Shown in pieces: positions 22,561-32,301 of a stretch of 64,000 nucleotides of DNA. The notes under the pieces were generated by a model. It was given only the letters and a program-made list of their open reading frames with translations. It was not told the DNA's origin and did not search any database. The translations under genes and the position numbers were made by a program. The stretch's first letter is position 1; each line of letters opens with the position of its first letter. Source of the DNA: an uncultured Lentisphaerota bacterium (GTDB lineage: Bacteria; Verrucomicrobiota; Lentisphaeria; Oligosphaerales; CAITYL01); NCBI GenBank assembly GCA_903921725.1, contig CAIXRA010000028.1, positions 61,051-125,050 of the forward strand, written 5' to 3'.

Positions 22561-22613
22561 CGGGGGATTGCGATGGGGATTTGCGGGTGCCGGGCGGTTC
22601 CGATTTTTGGCAT

Positions 22614-22619
22614 TATAAT
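22614..22619 (+). promoter_or_regulatory. -10 box TATAAT of the U32 peptidase gene (possible leaderless start)
   Basis: Perfect TATAAT ending 6 nt before the ATG at 22626, so transcription would begin at or within the start codon. No good -35 hexamer and no Shine-Dalgarno sequence are present. Confidence 0.5.
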
Positions 22620-22625
22620 TCCCGC

Positions 22626-24950
22626 ATGCAGAGATCCATGGGCAAACCCGAAATCCTCGCCCCGGCCGGGGGGCCCGCGGCGCTGGCCGCCGCCGTCGCC
22701 GCGGGGGCGGATGCGGTCTATTTCGGGCTGAAGCAGCTCAACGCGCGGCGCGGCGCGGAGAATTTCCTGCCGGAGACGCTTCCGGAAACGCTGCGCACGC
22801 TGCATGCGGCGGGCGCCCGCGGCTACCTGACGCTGAACATCGATCTGGCTCAGCGCGAGCTCGGCCTAGCCGCGCGCCAGCTTGAACTGGCGCGGCAGTC
22901 GGGCGTCGACGCGGTGCTGGTGCGCGATCCGGCGCTGCTGGCGCTCGTCCCGCTGTTCCCGGAACTGGAGTTCCATTTCAGCACGCAGGCGGGTGTCTCG
23001 TCGAGCGCCGGCGTGCACGCCGCGAAGGAGCTGGGGATCCGGCGCGTGGTGCTGGCGCGGGAGATGAGCCTGGAGGAAATCCGGGCGGCGTCGGCGGTGG
23101 AGGGCGTGGAGACGGAGGTTTTCGTGCAGGGCGCGCTCTGCTTCTGCGCTTCAGGGCGCTGTCTGATGTCGAGCTGGGTCGGCGGACGCAGCGGCAACCG
23201 CGGCGCCTGCACCAGCCCGTGCCGCGTTTCCTGGACGATCAACGGCAAACCGGCCGGACGTCCGCTTTCCATGCACGACCTGAGCCTGGCGGACAAGCTG
23301 GACGCGCTGGCGGCGGCCGGGGTGCGCTCCTTCAAGATCGAAGGCCGGCTGAAAAAACCCGAGTGGGTCGCGCAGGCGGTGGCGCTCTACCGCAGGGCGT
23401 TGGAGAAGGAGACGGCAGAACGGAAAAACGGAAAAACGGAAGAAACAAATGGCGCAGCGGCGCTCGGCGCCTACACCGGCCGCAAGATGACCGCCGGCTT
23501 CCTCGACGGCATGCGGCGCAAGCTCACAGGCACCTCCGGGCGTGTGGCGGCGGAGAACCGGTGTGACGGTGAAGAACCGGCTTTCGCCAACGTCCGGCCG
23601 GTCGGGACCGATGATGAATCGCCCGTTGCCGCCACACCGTCACACGGCCACACCGCCACACTCTTGATGGGGATTACCGTGACCGTTGCCGCCGATGCGA
23701 AAGGCGGCCTGGTCTGGCGCTTCACCTTCGGCGGACATTCCAAAGAGGTGCGGACTCCGCCGCAGCCGGTGAAGAAGCCGGACCGTTCGGCGGACCTCGC
23801 GGAGATCGGGGAACGGCTTGCCGCCGCCGTGCCGAAGGGCGTGCCGTTCGCCGGAATTTCAGCAGTCCGGGGGTGCCATTCCCCGGCCTTGCGATGTGAT
23901 GCAAACGACATGCGGCAGGCTCAAAAGAAGGCTGGAGCCGGACAACCGGAACAATCGAGCGCGAATGGCGAGCGCGAACCTTCAATCCGGCTTCCGCGCA
24001 GCACGGCGAACAAGCTTGCGGACGAGCTGGCGGCCTTCATCCGGCTGGCGCAGAAGGAGCCGGACGGCCAGGTGCGCATCGAACTGCCCGCGGCGGTGAA
24101 GGCGCGTCTGGCGCCCGGCACCCCGCATCCGGAAAACCGGCGCACGCTTGGCGACCGCCCGAACCGTGTCCGCCTCGCCGCCGCTCAGGTTGCGGAGTTC
24201 GCACGCGCGGTGCCGGATGTGGAACTGATTGTGGAACAGGCGGATGCGCCGCTGCTGAAGGCGGCTGATTCTGCTGTAAATCCGCCGGCGTATGCGGCGG
24301 ATGGGATCGATAAGCAAGCACCGCCACACCGCCACACCGCCATACTGCCACACCGGCTCATCGTCGCCCTCCCGCAGGTTTTCTATGAGGCGGAGATTCC
24401 GCAGCTGGAGGCGCTACTGCGGCTTTGCGCGGCGCACGGCGTCCGCGTCGAGGCGAACAGTTGGGACGGCTGGTGGCTGGCGCGGAAATGGAACTGCCGC
24501 ATGGAGGCCGGTCCGGGGCTGATGGCGCTGAATGGAATGGCGGCGTCCGAGCTGCACCGCCTCGGCTGCGAAACGGCCATGCTCTCGGTCGAGGCGGACC
24601 GCGGTCAACTGGAGGACGCCTGCGCGGCCTGTGGCGCGCCGCTGTCGCTGGTCGTCTACGGGCGTCCGGTGCTGATGCACACCCGCGTCTGGTTCCCGGA
24701 TTCGCTGGCGGACGGCGCGGCGTTCACCGACGCCCGCGGCGGCGCGATGCGCATGTGGCGCGGCGGCGCATCCACGTTCCTCCTGCGCCCGGCCGAGCCG
24801 TTCGATCTCTGCGGACTCCGCAATGGGAAGATCCGCGTCCGGCATCTCGTCGCCGACCTGGTCGCCGCCCCCGATCCGCTGAAGGAATGGCGCAATCTCG
24901 GCAAGAATCCCGCCGCGCCCACCTTCAACTACGCCCGCACGCTGCGGTGA
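22626..24950 (+). CDS. U32-family peptidase (with C-terminal DUF3656-like region)
   Basis: 774 residues. The N-terminal TIM-barrel-like U32 domain reads PEILAPAGGPAALAAAVAAG and ADAVYFGLKQLNARRGAENF. The U32 cysteine signature is seen as GALCFCASGRC, SSWVGGRSGNRGACTSPCR. Members include collagenase-like proteases and the RNA hydroxylation factors RlhA/TrhP, so the biochemical role is open. The second half is longer than usual because short repeats are translated in frame: ACGGAAAA octamers near 23418-23445 and two blocks of CCGCCACA octamers at 23629 and 24321. The ORF track starts at 22581, but a TATAAT box at 22614 favours ATG 22626 or 22638. Confidence 0.82.
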   Translation: MQRSMGKPEILAPAGGPAALAAAVAAGADAVYFGLKQLNARRGAENFLPETLPETLRTLHAAGARGYLTLNIDLAQRELGLAARQLELARQSGVDAVLVRDPALLALVPLFPELEFHFSTQAGVSSSAGVHAAKELGIRRVVLAREMSLEEIRAASAVEGVETEVFVQGALCFCASGRCLMSSWVGGRSGNRGACTSPCRVSWTINGKPAGRPLSMHDLSLADKLDALAAAGVRSFKIEGRLKKPEWVAQAVALYRRALEKETAERKNGKTEETNGAAALGAYTGRKMTAGFLDGMRRKLTGTSGRVAAENRCDGEEPAFANVRPVGTDDESPVAATPSHGHTATLLMGITVTVAADAKGGLVWRFTFGGHSKEVRTPPQPVKKPDRSADLAEIGERLAAAVPKGVPFAGISAVRGCHSPALRCDANDMRQAQKKAGAGQPEQSSANGEREPSIRLPRSTANKLADELAAFIRLAQKEPDGQVRIELPAAVKARLAPGTPHPENRRTLGDRPNRVRLAAAQVAEFARAVPDVELIVEQADAPLLKAADSAVNPPAYAADGIDKQAPPHRHTAILPHRLIVALPQVFYEAEIPQLEALLRLCAAHGVRVEANSWDGWWLARKWNCRMEAGPGLMALNGMAASELHRLGCETAMLSVEADRGQLEDACAACGAPLSLVVYGRPVLMHTRVWFPDSLADGAAFTDARGGAMRMWRGGASTFLLRPAEPFDLCGLRNGKIRVRHLVADLVAAPDPLKEWRNLGKNPAAPTFNYARTLR
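23629..23660. repeat. Octamer tandem repeat CCGCCACA x4 inside the U32 gene
   Basis: CCGCCACA, CCGTCACA, CGGCCACA, CCGCCACA in perfect 8-nt register. Upstream GTGTGGCGG and GGTGTGACGGTG (near 23540-23572) form inverted matches to it. Confidence 0.75.
24321..24352. repeat. Octamer tandem repeat CCGCCACA x4 inside the U32 gene, second block
   Basis: CCGCCACA twice, then CCGCCATA and CTGCCACA, translated in frame as PPHRHTAILPH. Confidence 0.75.
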
Positions 24951-26012: not shown

Positions 26013-27362
26013 TTGGACATGGACACGAAAAGACCGACATCCTGGTTGGAGCCGTTGCCGCTGGGGGGCGGGGGGAACGCCCTGCCGTGCCGGATACTGC
26101 CGGGGCCGATGGAGGGGATCACGGACGGTTCCTTCTGCCGGGTGATGTCGGCCCGGGGGCTGGTGCGCGCCTGGGTGACGCCGTTCGTCCGTATCTCGAC
26201 GGCGGTGCCGCGGCTGGCGCGGCTGCGCGAACGGCTGGAGCCGTTCGGGTTGGGAAGCGAAAACGCAGAACACAGAACGCATAACGGAAAAACGGAAGAA
26301 CGGAAAAATAGACCCCCGGCCGCAGACCCCGGTCCTCGGACCACAGACCACGGCCCCCGGACCACAGGCCACGGGCACGGGGCCGCAGACCACGGTTCCC
26401 GTGCCACAGGCCACGGTCCCTGGGCAGAAGGCCACGGGCGGCACCCTGCGGACTTCCCCCGGCCGCCGGTGGTCGTCCAGCTCATGGGGCTGGACATTCC
26501 GCTGCTGGCGGAGACGGCGAAGCGCGTGGCGGAGCTCGGCGCGGCCGGGGTTGACCTGAACTGCGCATGTCCGAGCAAGGTGGTGCTGTCGAACGGAGCG
26601 GGTGGGGCACGGTTGCGGGATCCGGCGTGGATCCGGGAGGCGCTGTGCGCGCTCCGCAAGGCGGTGCCGGAGCTGGGGGTGAGCGTCAAGCTGCGTTCCG
26701 GCTTTGCGGACTCCGCGGCGGAGCTGCCGGGAATCGTGGCGGCGGTGCGGGAGGCGCGCCCGGATTTTGTGATGATGCATTTCCGCACGGTGCAGGAGGA
26801 GTACCGCGAGGTGCGGGACGGCTGGGACCGGCTGGCGCGGGCGAAGGAGCTGCTCGGCGACGGCATACCGCTTCTCGGCGCGGGCGACGTCGTCTCCGCG
26901 GCGGCGGCGTTGAATCTGTGGCGGCAGACGGGGGTGGACGGCGTGACGCCGGCGCGCGGGCTGCTGCGGAATCCCTGGCTGCTGCGGGAGATCGAAGCGA
27001 TGTGCGGCGGAGAGGTGGAGCGGTGTGGCTGTGTGACGGTGAAACTGCGTGGCGGTCAAAACAAAAAACCGCATGGTTCCGCCACTGCCACACCGCCACA
27101 CCGCCACGCCGTTACTCTGTCACACCACGCAGAGTTTCTTCGGGAGCTGGTTGCGGTCAGCGCGGAGACCGGGGAGTGGCGGCGCGGGTTTGTGCTGGAA
27201 CTGGCGCGGAACCTGTTCGGCGTTGACGCCGAACTGTTTACGGGGCTCGCAAAAGCCGTTGATGCCGGCGCGATGCTGAAGCTCCTGGAACAGGAGGCCG
27301 GAGGGAGGGCGTCACGCCCGGCGTGCAAGGCTGGGGCTGCGGGCTTCCCGCCTGGCAGCTGA
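26013..27362 (+). CDS. dus: tRNA-dihydrouridine synthase with in-frame repeat insertions
   Basis: 449-residue FMN-dependent Dus-family enzyme reducing uridines in tRNA D-loops. It shows LPGPMEGITDGSFCRV, VVVQLMGLD, DLNCACPSKVVLSNGAGGARL with the expected catalytic Cys, SVKLRSGF, FVMMHFRTVQEEY and LGAGDVVSA. It is ~100 residues longer than usual because residues ~85-150 are encoded by tandem repeats (AACGCAG and ACGGAARA units, then 17 heptamers) and ~330-380 by CCGCCACA octamers. The last ~20 residues (GGRASRPACKAGAAGFPPGS) also come from dispersed-repeat DNA. The start is TTG 26013, with GGAGG 6 nt before, or ATG 26019. The Dus subfamily (A, B or C) is not resolved. Confidence 0.85.
   Translation: MDMDTKRPTSWLEPLPLGGGGNALPCRILPGPMEGITDGSFCRVMSARGLVRAWVTPFVRISTAVPRLARLRERLEPFGLGSENAEHRTHNGKTEERKNRPPAADPGPRTTDHGPRTTGHGHGAADHGSRATGHGPWAEGHGRHPADFPRPPVVVQLMGLDIPLLAETAKRVAELGAAGVDLNCACPSKVVLSNGAGGARLRDPAWIREALCALRKAVPELGVSVKLRSGFADSAAELPGIVAAVREARPDFVMMHFRTVQEEYREVRDGWDRLARAKELLGDGIPLLGAGDVVSAAAALNLWRQTGVDGVTPARGLLRNPWLLREIEAMCGGEVERCGCVTVKLRGGQNKKPHGSATATPPHRHAVTLSHHAEFLRELVAVSAETGEWRRGFVLELARNLFGVDAELFTGLAKAVDAGAMLKLLEQEAGGRASRPACKAGAAGFPPGS
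26319..26437. repeat. 17 in-register heptamers (21-nt higher-order unit) inside dus
   Basis: Consecutive 7-mers of the types RCCRCAG, RCCACGG and NCCCSGG recur in that order, giving a 21-nt unit repeated about 5.7 times. They are translated as heptapeptides such as TTDHGPR, TTGHGHG, AADHGSR and ATGHGPW. Preceded at 26262-26309 by AACGCAG-like heptamers and ACGGAARA octamers. Confidence 0.9.
27021..27126. repeat. CCGCCACA-family octamers with inverted left arm, inside dus
   Basis: The right side 27079-27126 holds CCGCCACT, CCGCCACA, CCGCCACG, CCGTTACT and CTGTCACA. The left side 27021-27055 (GGTGTGGC, GTGTGACGGTG, GTGGCGG) is its partial inverted copy. It is translated through in frame. Confidence 0.7.
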
Positions 27363-27508: not shown

Positions 27509-29356
27509 TCAGCGGAGGAGTCGCGAAATGTCGCGCGCCGCGCCCTTGGCGGCCGAGGTCGCCATCAGGCCGTACGCCTGCAGCGACTCGGACACCACGC
27601 GCTCGCGTTTCGGCTTCCAGCCGGCGGCGTCCTTCGCGGTGCGGCGCCGGGCGATTTCCGCTTCGGGAACGGCGAGCGTGATGCCGCGGCTCGGGATGTC
27701 GATGACGATTTTGTCGTTTTCCTCGACCAGCCCGATCAGTCCGCCCTCGGCCGCTTCCGGCGAGACATGGCCGATGGAAAGACCGGAGGTGCCGCCGCTG
27801 AAACGACCGTCCGTAATCAGCGCGCACTGTTTGTCCATATGCAGCGACTTGAGGTAACTGGTCGGGTAGAGCATCTCCTGCATGCCAGGCCCGCCGCGCG
27901 GCCCCTCGTAGCGGATGACGACGACGTCGCCCGGCTGGAGCGTGCCGCCGAGGATCAGCTCGATCGCCGCCTCCTGCGAGTCGCAGACCCGCGCCCGGCC
28001 CTCGAAATGGAAGATGCTCGGGTCGACGCCGGCGGTCTTCACGATGCAGCCTTCCTCCGCCAGGTTGCCGTAAAGCACGTTCAGGCCGCCTTCCTTCGTG
28101 TAGGCGTGGGCGAAATCGCGGGTGACGCCGGTCTCGGCGTCGAGGTCGGCCTCGGGATACATCTCGTTCTGCGCGAAGCCGGTGAGGCAGAACTTGCCGC
28201 CCGGAGCCGCCAGCGCGCGCTGTTTCGCCTCCTCCGTCAGTTCGGGGGCCTTTCCGCGGATATCGTTCCTGCGGACCTGCAGCCCCATCGCGTCGCCGGA
28301 CACCGTCGGGCACGCCTCGTTGATTTTTCCGTGGCGCATCAGCTCGCCCATGATGACGGGGATGCCGCCGGCGCGGTTGACGTCTTCCATGTGGAACTTG
28401 CTGCTCGGCGCGACCTTGCAGATGCAGGGCACCTGGCGCGAGAGGCGGTCGATGTCCTTCATCGTGAAATCGACTCCGGCGGCGCGGGCCACGGCGAGGA
28501 TGTGCAGCACGGTGTTGGTGGAGCCGCCCATGGCGATGTCCACGTTCATCGAGTTCTCGAACGCGGCCTTGGATGCGATGGCGCGCGGGAGCACGGAGGC
28601 GTCGCCCTTCAGGTACCAGGCGTTCGCCATTTCGACGATGCGCGCGGAGGCGGTGCGGAACAGTTCCTTGCGCAGCGCGTGCGTGGCCAGCAGCGAGCCG
28701 TTGCCCGGAAGCGCCATGCCGAGCGCCTCCGCCAGGCAGTTCATGGAGTTGGCGGTGAACATGCCGGAGCAGGAGCCGCAGGTCGGGCAGGCCCGGTTTT
28801 CGACCTCGCGCAGGTCGGCGTCCGACACGTTCTTGTCGGCGGCCATGACCATCGCGTCGATCAGATCCAGCTTCACTTCGCCCTTGGACGTCGTGGCGCG
28901 GCCGGCCTCCATCGGGCCGCCGGCGACGAAGATGGAGGGGATGTTCAGGCGCATGGAGGCCATGAGCATTCCCGGCGTGATCTTGTCGCAGCTCGAGATG
29001 CAGATCATGGCGTCGGCGACGTGCGCGTTGCACATGTACTCCACGGAGTCGGCGATCAGCTCGCGGCTCGGTAGCGAGTACAGCATGCCGCCGTGCCCCA
29101 TGGCGATGCCGTCGTCAATCGCGATGGTGTTGAACTCCAGCCCGACGCCGCCGGCCTCCTCAATCATCTTCTTGATCATCTGGCCGTAGCTGTGGAGGTG
29201 CATGTGACCCGGCACGAACTGGGTGAAGGAGTTCACGATGGCGATGATCGGCTTGCCGAAATCGCCCTCCTTCACGCCGTTGGCCCGCCAGAGCGCCCGC
29301 GCCCCCGCCATCTTCCGCCCCTCAAAGGTCTGCGCACTGCGAAATTTGCCTGACAT
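27509..29356 (-). CDS. ilvD: Dihydroxy-acid dehydratase
   Basis: 615 residues, iron-sulphur dehydratase converting 2,3-dihydroxy acids to 2-oxo acids in valine, isoleucine and leucine synthesis. It shows [43 protein letters not shown] with cluster-binding cysteines, [12 protein letters not shown], and the C-terminal [19 protein letters not shown]. Length is standard. The product feeds LeuA and IlvE, both also in this window but at separate loci. A 9-nt tandem repeat lies 30-74 nt upstream of the ATG, replacing an ordinary promoter region. Confidence 0.95.
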
Positions 29357-29385
29357 GATGTACCTCTTTCTTCTGGCGATATGCC

Positions 29386-29430
29386 CGATCGGTCCGATCG
29401 GTCCGATCCGTCGGATCGGTCGGATCCGAC
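29386..29430. repeat. Nonamer tandem repeat (CGATCGGTC x5) upstream of ilvD
   Basis: CGATCGGTC twice, then CGATCCGTC, GGATCGGTC and GGATCCGAC in exact 9-nt register. It lies in the 79-nt gap between ilvD and the end of rpsA, and is self-complementary enough to form hairpins. Confidence 0.8.
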
Positions 29431-29435
29431 AATGT

Positions 29436-30935
29436 TCAATCCAGCTTCAGCTTGTCGAGGGCACCGAAGGCGCTGGCGATGCTGCCAAGCGGGCCGTCGG
29501 CCTTCGGCTGGGCCTGGCGGTACTCGCTGTAGGCGGCCTCTTCCTCGTCCACCTCGTTGCCCTTTTCGGCCACGCCGGGAAGCGCCAGGGAGATGCGTTC
29601 GCCATCGACCACGTTCACCAGCACCTTCACTTCCTTGCCGGGGCCGAACTGGCCGTGCATCTGGCGCATGCGCGCCGGGCCGTCGGCCAGCCCCATGCGG
29701 CTGATGTGCAGCAGGCCGGTCCGTCCACCGGGCAGACGGATGAACGCGCCGAAATCTTTCAGCGACTCCACCGTGCCGGCCAGTTCCGCGCCGGGCACGA
29801 TCGAAGCGAGCTGCCGCGCCGTCTCCTCCCGCGCCGCCATCTCCTCCGCGTTGATGGAGGTCACGGACAGTGAGAGGCGCCGCTTTTCGTAGTCCACGTT
29901 TTCAATCTGCACCTCGACCGGATCCCCTTCCTTCACCGCCTCGCTGGCGTGATTCAGGCGTCGGCCGCGGCCGAGCTTGCCAATCGGGATCAGCCCCTCC
30001 AGCCCCGGCTCCAGCTCGACGAACGCGCCGAATTCCATCGTCTTCGAGATGCGGCCCGCATGCTTCGTGCCCTGGGTGTATTTGTCGATGAGCGTGGTCC
30101 AGGGATCGGTCTCGGCTACGCGCAGGCTCAGGGAGATGCGCTTCTTCTCCCAGTCGATGTCGCGCACCATCACGGTCACCCGCTGCCCCACCGTCACCAC
30201 GTCCTCGGCCTTCACGCCGCGCTTCCAGGCCAGCTCGCCCAGCGGCACCAGCCCGTCAATCCCGCCGATGTCCACAAACACGCCGAACGGCATCAGCTTC
30301 TTCACCGTGCCCTCGAGCCGGTCGCCGACGTGCAGCGAGTTCTTCATCTCTTCGCGCGCCACCTCCTGCTCCGCCTCCAGAAGCGGACGGCGGACGACGA
30401 CCAGGCGGTAGCCGTCATCGGAGTATTCGCGCACCTGGAACAGGAACTTCTGGCCGATGTAAACCGCGGCGTCCGCCTTGGAGATGTCGATCTGCGAGAA
30501 CGGGCAGAACCCCTCGTGCGTGCCGACCTGGACGGTGTAGCCGCCCTTGGTCTCGGCCATGACGCGCCCCTCGACCGGCACCTTCGCGTTCAGGGCGTCC
30601 ATCAGCGACGAATCGGCCGTCTCGCCGGACATGCGCTTGGTCAGGCGGATCTCGCCGGTCACGTCGTTGAAGCGGACGCACATCGCCTCGATGGTGTCGC
30701 CGACCTTGACCGTGGGCTTACCTTCCTTGTCCAGCACCTCGGCGCGGTCGAGCATGGCCTCGCAGAGCGCGTTGACGTCGATGAACACCGTCTTTGCGTC
30801 GATCGCCGTGATCGTGCCCGTGACCTTGTCGCCGGCGTAGATGCGGGTCGTCTCGCGCTTCGCCTTCGCGCCCTTGCCCGCATCAAAAGCCGCCAGCATC
30901 GCGCCAAAGTCCATCGTGTCGTTCGAGTCTGCCAT
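29436..30935 (-). CDS. rpsA: 30S ribosomal protein S1 (multi-S1-domain RNA-binding protein)
   Basis: 499 residues from [10 protein letters not shown], with an acidic lead-in and about five S1/OB-fold repeats. Recurring cores are [76 protein letters not shown] and [29 protein letters not shown]1 helps the 30S subunit load mRNAs, including weak-SD ones. This copy has about five domains rather than the six of enterobacterial S1. The ORF track begins 13 residues earlier (MQPTTNQ). A perfect TTGACA -35 occurs upstream near 31023-31028, with only a weak -10. Confidence 0.85.
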
Positions 30936-31047: not shown

Positions 31048-32301
31048 TCACTTTTCTGTTTTCTGGTTCGGCCGGGCGCGGACAATCTCCGTGCCGGGGG
31101 CGGTTAATTCGATGGCGGCCTCCGCCAGGCAGGCGGGCCAGAGCCAGATGCTGCCGCGCGGGGCGTCGAAGGCCTCGCCCTGCGGAGTCCGCAGCTTTGC
31201 GGCGCCGTTCAGGACGAGCAGGAGCGAAACGGCACCGTCGGACGCGGACTCCGCAACGCCGCCGGCAGCGCCGGAAATGATTTCGACCTGGAACTCCGGC
31301 GTCGGCGGCACGAAGGCGCGGACGGACACGGAAGCGTTTCGTGTTTCGTGTTGCGTGTTGCATGTTTGCGGGAAAAGCCGCTGCACGCCGGCCTGGGAGT
31401 AGGTGAGCATGTTTAGCAGCACGTCGGTGTCCACAAACTTCGGCGTCAGGCCGGCGCGGACGACGTTGTCGGAGTTGGCCATGCACTCGATGATCGTGCC
31501 GCGGAGGTAGGCATGCGGTTCGTTGGCGCCGAGGTAGATGCACTCGCCCGGTTCCAGATGCACCAGATTCAGGAAATAGAGCGAGAGCAGCCCGGCGTCG
31601 TCCGGGTACTGCGCCGCAAGCCGGAGGAACCAGCCGTCGTGCGGAGTCCGCACGGCGAGTCCGCCAATCTCGGCGGCCAGCGCGCGGACGGTTGCCGTGA
31701 CGGCTTCCTTCGGCGCGCGGAAAATGGCGGCGTAGGCGGCGCGGAGCCAGTAATCCGTTTCATGTTGCGTGTTGCGTGTTGCGTGTTGGGAGGAAAACTC
31801 GTCCAGAAACGCGCCGAGGGATTTGAGGCGTGCGGCGTCCTTGCGGATGTCGGCGGCGGGGCGGAACTGCGCCAGGGCGTCGAACGGCGTGACGGCGACG
31901 GCGATTTCCGGTTTCGGGTTGGGGTCCGGATAATTTTTGGGATCCCGCGCATGCAGGCACTTGGCGAGTTCCACATCAGGATGCGCCTGGATGGAAAGCG
32001 CCCGGCTGCAGCTCAGCACCTTGAGCAGGAATGGCAGGCCCGGCCGTCCAGTAGATTTCCCCGCCGTTCCCCCAAGCACGGCTTCGGGGTTTGCTCCAAT
32101 AAAATCAGTGAGCACCGTGCCGTCCGGCAGCCTTGCGGGCAGGCTCGGATGCGCGCCGATCCAGAGTTCGGCGAACGGCTGTCCGTCTCCGGCGGGGAGG
32201 CCGAGGAGGCCGGCGATGAACGGCGTCCGGCCGTTTTCCGCCCTTTCCCCCCAGGGGTACGGCTGCACGCCGCAGGTCAGTTTGATGAACGAGGGTTTCA
32301 T
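31048..32301 (-). CDS. manA: Mannose-6-phosphate isomerase, class I, with in-frame heptamer insertions
   Basis: 417-residue type I phosphomannose isomerase interconverting mannose-6-P and fructose-6-P (zinc enzyme). Motifs: CGVQPYPWGE, ELWIGAHPSLPA, KVLSCSRALSIQAHPD, NYPDPNPKPEIAVA, LGANEPHAYLRGTIIECMANSDNVVRAGLT. Two blocks, FSSQHATRNTQHETD and QTCNTQHETRNAS, are encoded by (GTTKCRT)n heptamer repeats and have no counterpart in the family. They fall in loops between conserved segments and keep the frame. The ORF track starts at a GTG (32316). I prefer ATG 32301 (MKPSFIKLT). Confidence 0.9.
   Translation of the reverse strand: MKPSFIKLTCGVQPYPWGERAENGRTPFIAGLLGLPAGDGQPFAELWIGAHPSLPARLPDGTVLTDFIGANPEAVLGGTAGKSTGRPGLPFLLKVLSCSRALSIQAHPDVELAKCLHARDPKNYPDPNPKPEIAVAVTPFDALAQFRPAADIRKDAARLKSLGAFLDEFSSQHATRNTQHETDYWLRAAYAAIFRAPKEAVTATVRALAAEIGGLAVRTPHDGWFLRLAAQYPDDAGLLSLYFLNLVHLEPGECIYLGANEPHAYLRGTIIECMANSDNVVRAGLTPKFVDTDVLLNMLTYSQAGVQRLFPQTCNTQHETRNASVSVRAFVPPTPEFQVEIISGAAGGVAESASDGAVSLLLVLNGAAKLRTPQGEAFDAPRGSIWLWPACLAEAAIELTAPGTEIVRARPNQKTEK
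31336..31363. repeat. Heptamer repeat (GTTKCRT x4) inside manA
   Basis: GTTTCGT, GTTTCGT, GTTGCGT, GTTGCAT in register on the plus strand, with a degenerate fifth unit. Translated on the minus strand as NTQHETR. Confidence 0.8.
31757..31791. repeat. Heptamer repeat (GTTKCRT x5) inside manA
   Basis: GTTTCAT, three GTTGCGT, then GTTGGGA. Translated as QHATRNTQHETD. Same family as the intergenic copy at 2145-2193. Confidence 0.8.

Follow-up and report, generated by a model that had tools for sequence, protein, structure and literature searches.

Tandem repeats of 7-8 bp within a tRNA-dihydrouridine synthase gene and other genes of an uncultured Oligosphaerales bacterium

Repeats with units of 7-8 bp are usually viewed as intergenic elements or as on/off switches. 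The stretch of DNA analysed here (64,000 nt, hereafter the window) belongs to a draft genome of an uncultured Oligosphaerales bacterium, a MAG of 3.18 Mb in 82 contigs that is about 95% complete, and it contains a long array of such units inside the reading frame of a conserved RNA-modification enzyme. The question that arises is how the array came to be there, and whether the enzyme makes use of it or merely tolerates it.

The dus gene and its inserts

The dus gene (window 26013-27362, forward strand; start at TTG 26013 or ATG 26019) encodes a DusC-like tRNA-dihydrouridine synthase of 449 residues, which matches the Pfam family PF01207 (Dus) with E 6e-35. Its closest relative in the PDB, by sequence and by fold, is E. 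coli DusC, the top Foldseek matches being 4bf9, 4bfa and 4yco. The protein scores below the NCBI equivalog cut-offs for DusA, DusB and DusC alike, with a best score of 115.7 bits against a cut-off of 293 (DusB) and 97.9 against 395 for DusC; hence the label 'DusC-like', which leaves the exact subfamily undecided. Named homologues are mostly from Lentisphaeria or Victivallales MAGs, together with Oligosphaera ethanolica, which is of the same order as the host. The catalytic cysteine of the N-C-x-C-P-S motif is present, in the form NCACPSK, and is invariant across the alignment, and the equivalent E. coli cysteine is seen in the PDB alignment. Indeed, all invariant alignment columns and core residues are kept, and as judged from its sequence the gene looks functional.

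Set within this gene is a composite repeat block, insert 1, which spans residues 79-151 (73 residues; window 26247-26465, forward strand). It consists of three AACGCAG-type heptamers (26262-26283), about three AACGGAAA-type octamers (26284-26310), whose unit family has 108 exact 15-mer matches genome-wide, and a GACCACG-type array (26319-26437), the 119 nt of which are exactly 17 in-register heptamers. When the array is compared with itself at lags of 7, 21 and 63 nt, identity reaches 0.57, 0.745 and 0.786, respectively, against 0.33 in a set of 5000 resamples from an order-1 Markov model; the corresponding z values are 5.1, 8.2 and 7.1, and the highest identity in any resample was 0.50, 0.51 and 0.55. 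In other words, the heptamers are organised at higher levels: three types follow one another in fixed order (consensus RCCRCAG / RCCACGG / TCCCCGG) to give a 21-nt unit, and two 63-nt copies make up a super-period, TRF detecting the array at periods of both 21 and 63. Because the units have diverged, the array went undetected when the window was scanned by strict autocorrelation, and it was TRF and the lag-21 comparison that recovered it.

An earlier sequence-only reading of this DNA had described the 17 in-register heptamers, the 21-nt unit with its three types in fixed order and the AACGCAG heptamers and AACGGAAA octamers ahead of them, all of which are confirmed by these measurements. The same reading placed the array in frame within dus, just before a conserved strand and adding about 60 residues to the protein, and this also holds. 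The open reading frame is stop-free across the whole block, where it encodes ...PRTTDHGPRTTGHG..., all three parts are read in a single open frame, and the insert lies between the helix of residues 68-78 and the strand of residues 153-159. In a protein search over 60 relatives, from which 28 orthologues were extracted for loop comparison, the match is split, running up to about query residue 78 and resuming from about 149-152. The block, whose absence from close relatives the earlier reading had anticipated, is missing from all 28 of those aligned; at its site most relatives have a loop of 4-5 residues and two genomes of the same family one of about 12, which puts the net gain at about 60-68 residues. 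Insert 1 is, therefore, a lineage-specific insertion.

An AlphaFold model built with 33 sequences gives a pLDDT of at least 90 for 294 residues and, apart from the termini, below 50 for residues 94-142 and most of 341-364. The protein is thus predicted to be an intact TIM-barrel enzyme with a disordered loop that holds most of insert 1, and the catalytic core, as modelled, is unaffected by the insert. Between the two 63-bp copies of the array, seven of nine codon differences are nonsynonymous, which would fit tolerance and, at the level of sequence, offers no hint that the insert peptide itself is constrained. As single-stranded DNA, insert 1 shows no excess folding relative to shuffles (z = -0.2), and structure was accordingly rejected as its function.

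Two features go beyond what the earlier reading had reported, namely a second insert in dus and the presence of similar arrays in dozens of the host's remaining genes. Insert 2, at about residues 336-373 (window 27018-27131, forward strand), is an inverted pair of CCGCCACA-type octamers which is missing from relatives, forms a DNA hairpin (z = -4.0) and sits in the linker between the barrel and the C-terminal helical domain. Octamers of the CCGCCACA type often occur as inverted pairs giving hairpins within genes, as they do here and in MurG (L113:8086-9348), and the resulting inserts are about 35-40 residues long. A second, DusB-like gene of the host (G000:C28:34102-35196) carries AACGCAG and AACACGC arrays at residues 240-268, which precede the C-terminal domain and are in position the counterpart of insert 2. 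Closer at hand, the U32-family gene adjoining dus (window 22581-24950, forward strand) has in-frame arrays at 23409-23449 (AACGGAAA), 23629-23661 and 24315-24360 (CCGCCACA), and the phosphomannose isomerase gene (31051-32301, reverse strand) has two in-frame AACACGC arrays (31331-31371 and 31753-31795). The intergenic families are exemplified in the window by a 9-bp GATC-type array at 29375-29431, between an ilvD-like gene (27509-29356, reverse strand) and the next gene (29438-30935, reverse strand).

Related arrays across the genome

With the insert 1 block as query, 38 similar places are found in the host genome. The exact 15-mer AACGGAARAACGGAA occurs 108 times in the host; the two same-family genomes have 30 and 4 copies, and the remaining genomes of the order none. 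The sister genome G001 is among the carriers of the octamer family. Arrays were surveyed in 1.90 Mb of the host (G000; about 60% of the genome), 0.40 Mb of O. ethanolica (G014) and 0.22 Mb of G001, with repeat unit families picked by eye and coding sequences predicted by a home-made hexamer model in which arrays were masked and an open frame was required. At a strict threshold the host contains 24 7-bp and 26 8-bp arrays per Mb, as against none of either in a Markov shuffle at the same threshold. In all, the sampled 1.90 Mb holds 210 arrays of 7-8 bp, of which 100 lie in coding sequence and affect 57 of the 1374 predicted genes (about 4%). The sequence-only reading had taken a coding array to be exceptional, a view that gives way before these counts and before the heptanucleotides already known within genes of Geobacter metallireducens (PMC2700814).

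The host's units, of 7 and 8 bp, fall into about ten families, among them AACACGC, AACGCAG, AAGGCAG, GACCACG, AAAATCG, AACGGAAA and CCGCCACA, with heptamers and octamers equally common. Array-bearing genes confirmed by Pfam encode, among others, UvrD-type helicases, IspH (LYTB), the second Dus, PrmC, a PBP transglycosylase/transpeptidase, NamZ, MurG (glycosyltransferase 28), an RluD-type pseudouridine synthase, an M20 peptidase, a TatD DNase and phosphomannose isomerase. In the four cases where O. ethanolica orthologues were compared (MurG, UvrD, RluD and an FAD-dependent protein), alignment gaps fall at the array sites. Arrays are distributed evenly along the length of genes. Most of those in genes other than dus have a period of 7 or 8 without the 21-nt super-period, and some other host arrays are near perfect, unlike the diverged array of dus.

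The piling up of families seen in dus is a recurrent feature. In 34 cases two 7-8-bp arrays are separated by no more than 100 bp, compared with 2.7 expected at random and a maximum of 9 in 500 simulations, and 22 of the 34 pairs join different families. The simplest reading of these composite blocks is that permissive loops gather repeated insertions. The order AACGCAG, AACGGAAA, GACCACG is common to dus and to an acyl-CoA-ligase-like gene on C11. A shared ancestral composite element was considered for these two genes and set aside, given that the spacing and the intervening sequence differ, and copying from one to the other is not claimed.

Several further observations concern the distribution of individual families. 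AACACGC has 17 exact matches in the host and 22 in a distant, class-level relative (G053) and is absent from the two genomes of the same family, a patchiness like that of the TAACTGA repeats discussed below. The RNase P RNA gene (C11:113352-113741) is preceded, at a distance of about 50 bp, by an array of ACAGGCA/AACACGC-type heptamers (G000:C11:113257-113302). The 10-bp arrays of the ATCGACGGTT type, for example G000:C25:116161-116298 and C6:89147-89266, have a stop on one strand and are outside coding sequence in 18 of the 19 sampled. The cultured O. ethanolica (G014 C1:1-400000) is rich in arrays with 9-bp units, of the GATCSGWCS type and GTCCACCAC, which reach 70 per Mb, and it has arrays with 10-bp units as well; by the home-made gene model, 26 of 28 nine-mer arrays are without a coding flank. 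The pattern GATCSGWCSGATCSGWCSGATC has 435 matches in the O. ethanolica genome and 402 in a genome of the same genus (G039), and is present in 19 of 60 genomes.

Orientation, translation and possible origins

Evidence that arrays in genes are translated comes from their orientation. Within coding sequence 89 are in the sense and 11 in the antisense orientation (p = 2.5e-16), or 50:4 with one vote per gene, whereas those between co-directional genes are unbiased at 31:34 (Fisher p = 9e-9 for coding versus intergenic). A family-free test on strict arrays gives the same result, with A-rich to T-rich ratios of 57:6 in coding sequence and 12:10 in intergenic DNA, against 52.5% A-rich among random coding windows. 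Stop codons are not the cause of this bias, since most units are stop-free on both strands. Rather, the favoured orientation, which is T-free in most families, encodes hydrophilic residues, and the opposite one hydrophobic or Cys-rich peptides; AACACGC, for instance, reads NTQHATR on its favoured strand (mean hydropathy -2.0) and ACCVLRV on the other (+2.1). Families with T on both strands are scarce in coding sequence (AACGTTC 1/42, ATCGACGGTT 1/19), the exception being AAAATCG, which contains T, yet lies in coding sequence in 4/4 cases. The frequent arrangement of CCGCCACA in inverted pairs accounts for the weaker orientation of that family (11:6). That the bias is confined to coding sequence suggests, as far as sequence can, that arrays in genes are translated and filtered by purifying selection on the protein. 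An earlier strict scan found 26 arrays with open coding flanks in the same frame and two frame-shifted on the same strand; these data agree with selection for frame, with the proviso that the gene model itself favours open frames, such that the frame statistic, though not the orientation statistic, is partly built in.

Insert 1 is likely to be one instance among many in which 7-8-bp repeat families found throughout the genome have entered host genes, where they are translated and tolerated. In this DusC-like enzyme, a surface loop permissive of insertion would have gathered three families, AACGCAG, AACGGAAA and GACCACG, and the insert would be translated as a hydrophilic, disordered loop. Arrays may grow and diverge through replication slippage and point mutation, slippage having been proposed for 7-nt units elsewhere (PMC4679880), and purifying selection at the protein level would leave as survivors only in-frame insertions with hydrophilic peptides. 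The arrays are, then, probably tolerated rather than functional. The sequence-only reading had pointed out that a 21-nt unit permits changes of copy number without loss of frame, which is arithmetically correct; recent slippage, on the other hand, is at odds with units that are only 57% identical at lag 7. Slippage and point mutation would explain how arrays grow and decay, though not how a single unit comes to be present at many sites. Spread driven by a reverse transcriptase (group II intron, DGR or retron) was rejected, there being no RVT_1 gene in the host genome (about 95% complete). With regard to mobile hairpins of the RAYT/REP type, the genome contains three matches to the transposase family Y1_Tnp, for which no link to the arrays was seen. 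It is conceivable, if unlikely, that words of 7-8 bp, few in kind, are written into the genome, within genes as well as between them, by an active mechanism directed by sequence, which would so provide a general supply of new disordered loops, in which case the similar order of families in dus and the C11 acyl-CoA-ligase-like gene would reflect the writing mechanism and not mere tolerance of the site. Units without T on one strand would then be words readable stop-free in all frames and giving hydrophilic peptides.

Other accounts differ from that of tolerated insertion either in what they take the orientation to mean or in what they take insert 1 to do. It is quite unlikely that the bias stems from transcription or RNA effects, such as a preference of insertion for the non-template strand, RNA structure or avoidance in transcripts, and not from the encoded peptide; orientation does track the coding strand, in favour of such effects, but arrays in gaps of <400 bp between co-directional genes, many of them presumably transcribed, are unbiased (13:13 for T-free families), and transcription-linked orientation was rejected as the main cause because the intergenic arrays show none. 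Insert 1 might instead extend the function of Dus and be kept by positive or purifying selection, perhaps as an arm, rich in His and Arg, that touches tRNA or some further partner; this idea is suggested by an insert that is long, charged, in frame and near the surface of an RNA-binding enzyme whose gene is otherwise intact. Such a functional extension is very unlikely, however, given that similar arrays occur in enzymes as unrelated as UvrD, MurG, IspH, ManA and RluD, that the insert is predicted to be disordered and is found in none of the relatives, and that the internal copies of the array differ mostly nonsynonymously.

Simple sequence repeat (SSR) contingency loci are well known, and a unit length that is not a multiple of three invites the idea that gain or loss of 7 bp shifts the frame and switches Dus on and off by phase variation. 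Such loci have near-perfect units, whereas the lag-7 identity in dus is 0.57, and with units so diverged slippage would be rare; moreover, the best short period of the array is 21 nt, and arrays occur at an even density over the length of genes with no concentration near the start, all of which makes a switch highly improbable. That the 82-contig draft contains an assembly artefact here, or a decaying pseudogene, is barely credible in view of the many independent loci and families with intact frames, the retention of invariant Dus residues, the absence of such arrays from Markov shuffles and the occurrence of the octamer family in the sister genome. Finally, an insert that interrupts a conserved gene might never form part of the working protein, being excised as an intron or an intein or skipped as a translational bypass element. 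The probability of this is close to negligible: the frame is open and stop-free across the insert, the orientation bias implies that the encoded residues matter, the lack of an RVT_1 gene means that there is no self-encoded group II intron machinery, and the insert has no unusual fold as single-stranded DNA.

That 7-8-bp arrays are present in some 4% of the genes sampled, among them genes of core enzymes, has several consequences. Strand orientation offers a simple genomic test for translation and protein-level filtering of inserts, so the entry of new disordered segments into conserved enzymes becomes testable, and interest is revived in the way short repeats of identical sequence come to be seeded at many positions of one genome. 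Annotators, meanwhile, should be aware that protein phrases such as NTQHATRNTQHAT or ERKNGKTEERKNG are repeat DNA.

Comparison with known repeat systems

The STRRs (short tandemly repeated repetitive sequences) of heterocystous cyanobacteria are degenerate tandem heptamers, dispersed in several families per genome by a mechanism that is unknown, and have been described mainly from intergenic DNA. The sequence-only reading had invoked them, aptly as far as the DNA is concerned, for the host arrays are likewise imperfect tandem units of ~7 bp at many unrelated loci. Unlike the cyanobacterial STRRs and the heptamers of Xanthomonas, though, they are not mainly intergenic, 100 of the 210 being in coding sequence. 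The GGGNATC-type G-rich heptamers of Xanthomonas and Nostoc form dispersed arrays that are found on either strand of the chromosome, with about 180 in each Xanthomonas genome (PMC4692102, where SSR contingency loci are also reviewed), whereas the host arrays have a single orientation when they enter genes, and G-tracts are lacking from most of their families. In Geobacter metallireducens, heptanucleotide tandem elements (consensus GGACCGG, 49 copies) occur within genes too, as one family of fixed four-unit design for which a regulatory RNA role was proposed (PMC2700814); the host, by comparison, has about ten families, mixed composite blocks and an orientation tied to the coding strand. The TAACTGA repeats of Beggiatoaceae are dispersed direct heptamers, patchy across phyla and mainly intergenic, upstream of start codons, and limits set by coding on their orientation have been noted (PMC4679880). 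TAACTGA has stops in one orientation, whereas most host units are stop-free on both strands.

At the level of the protein, the parallel is with the palindromic elements of Rickettsia (RPE), mobile-element-like palindromic units of about 150 bp that lie in frame in many unrelated metabolic genes and add peptide segments compatible with function (PMC10969869). The host arrays are similarly in frame in unrelated protein genes (57 coding sequences, with gaps in the orthologues of Dus, MurG, UvrD and RluD); they differ from RPEs in being short tandem arrays without a ~150-bp palindrome, only the CCGCCACA inverted pairs forming hairpins. Literature searches found no description of the host's repeats in Lentisphaerae. 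The overall picture is that the host arrays resemble RPEs at the protein level and heptamers of the Geobacter, Xanthomonas and Beggiatoaceae type at the DNA level, such that no single definition covers them fully, while their scale, their composite blocks and their orientation signature look new.
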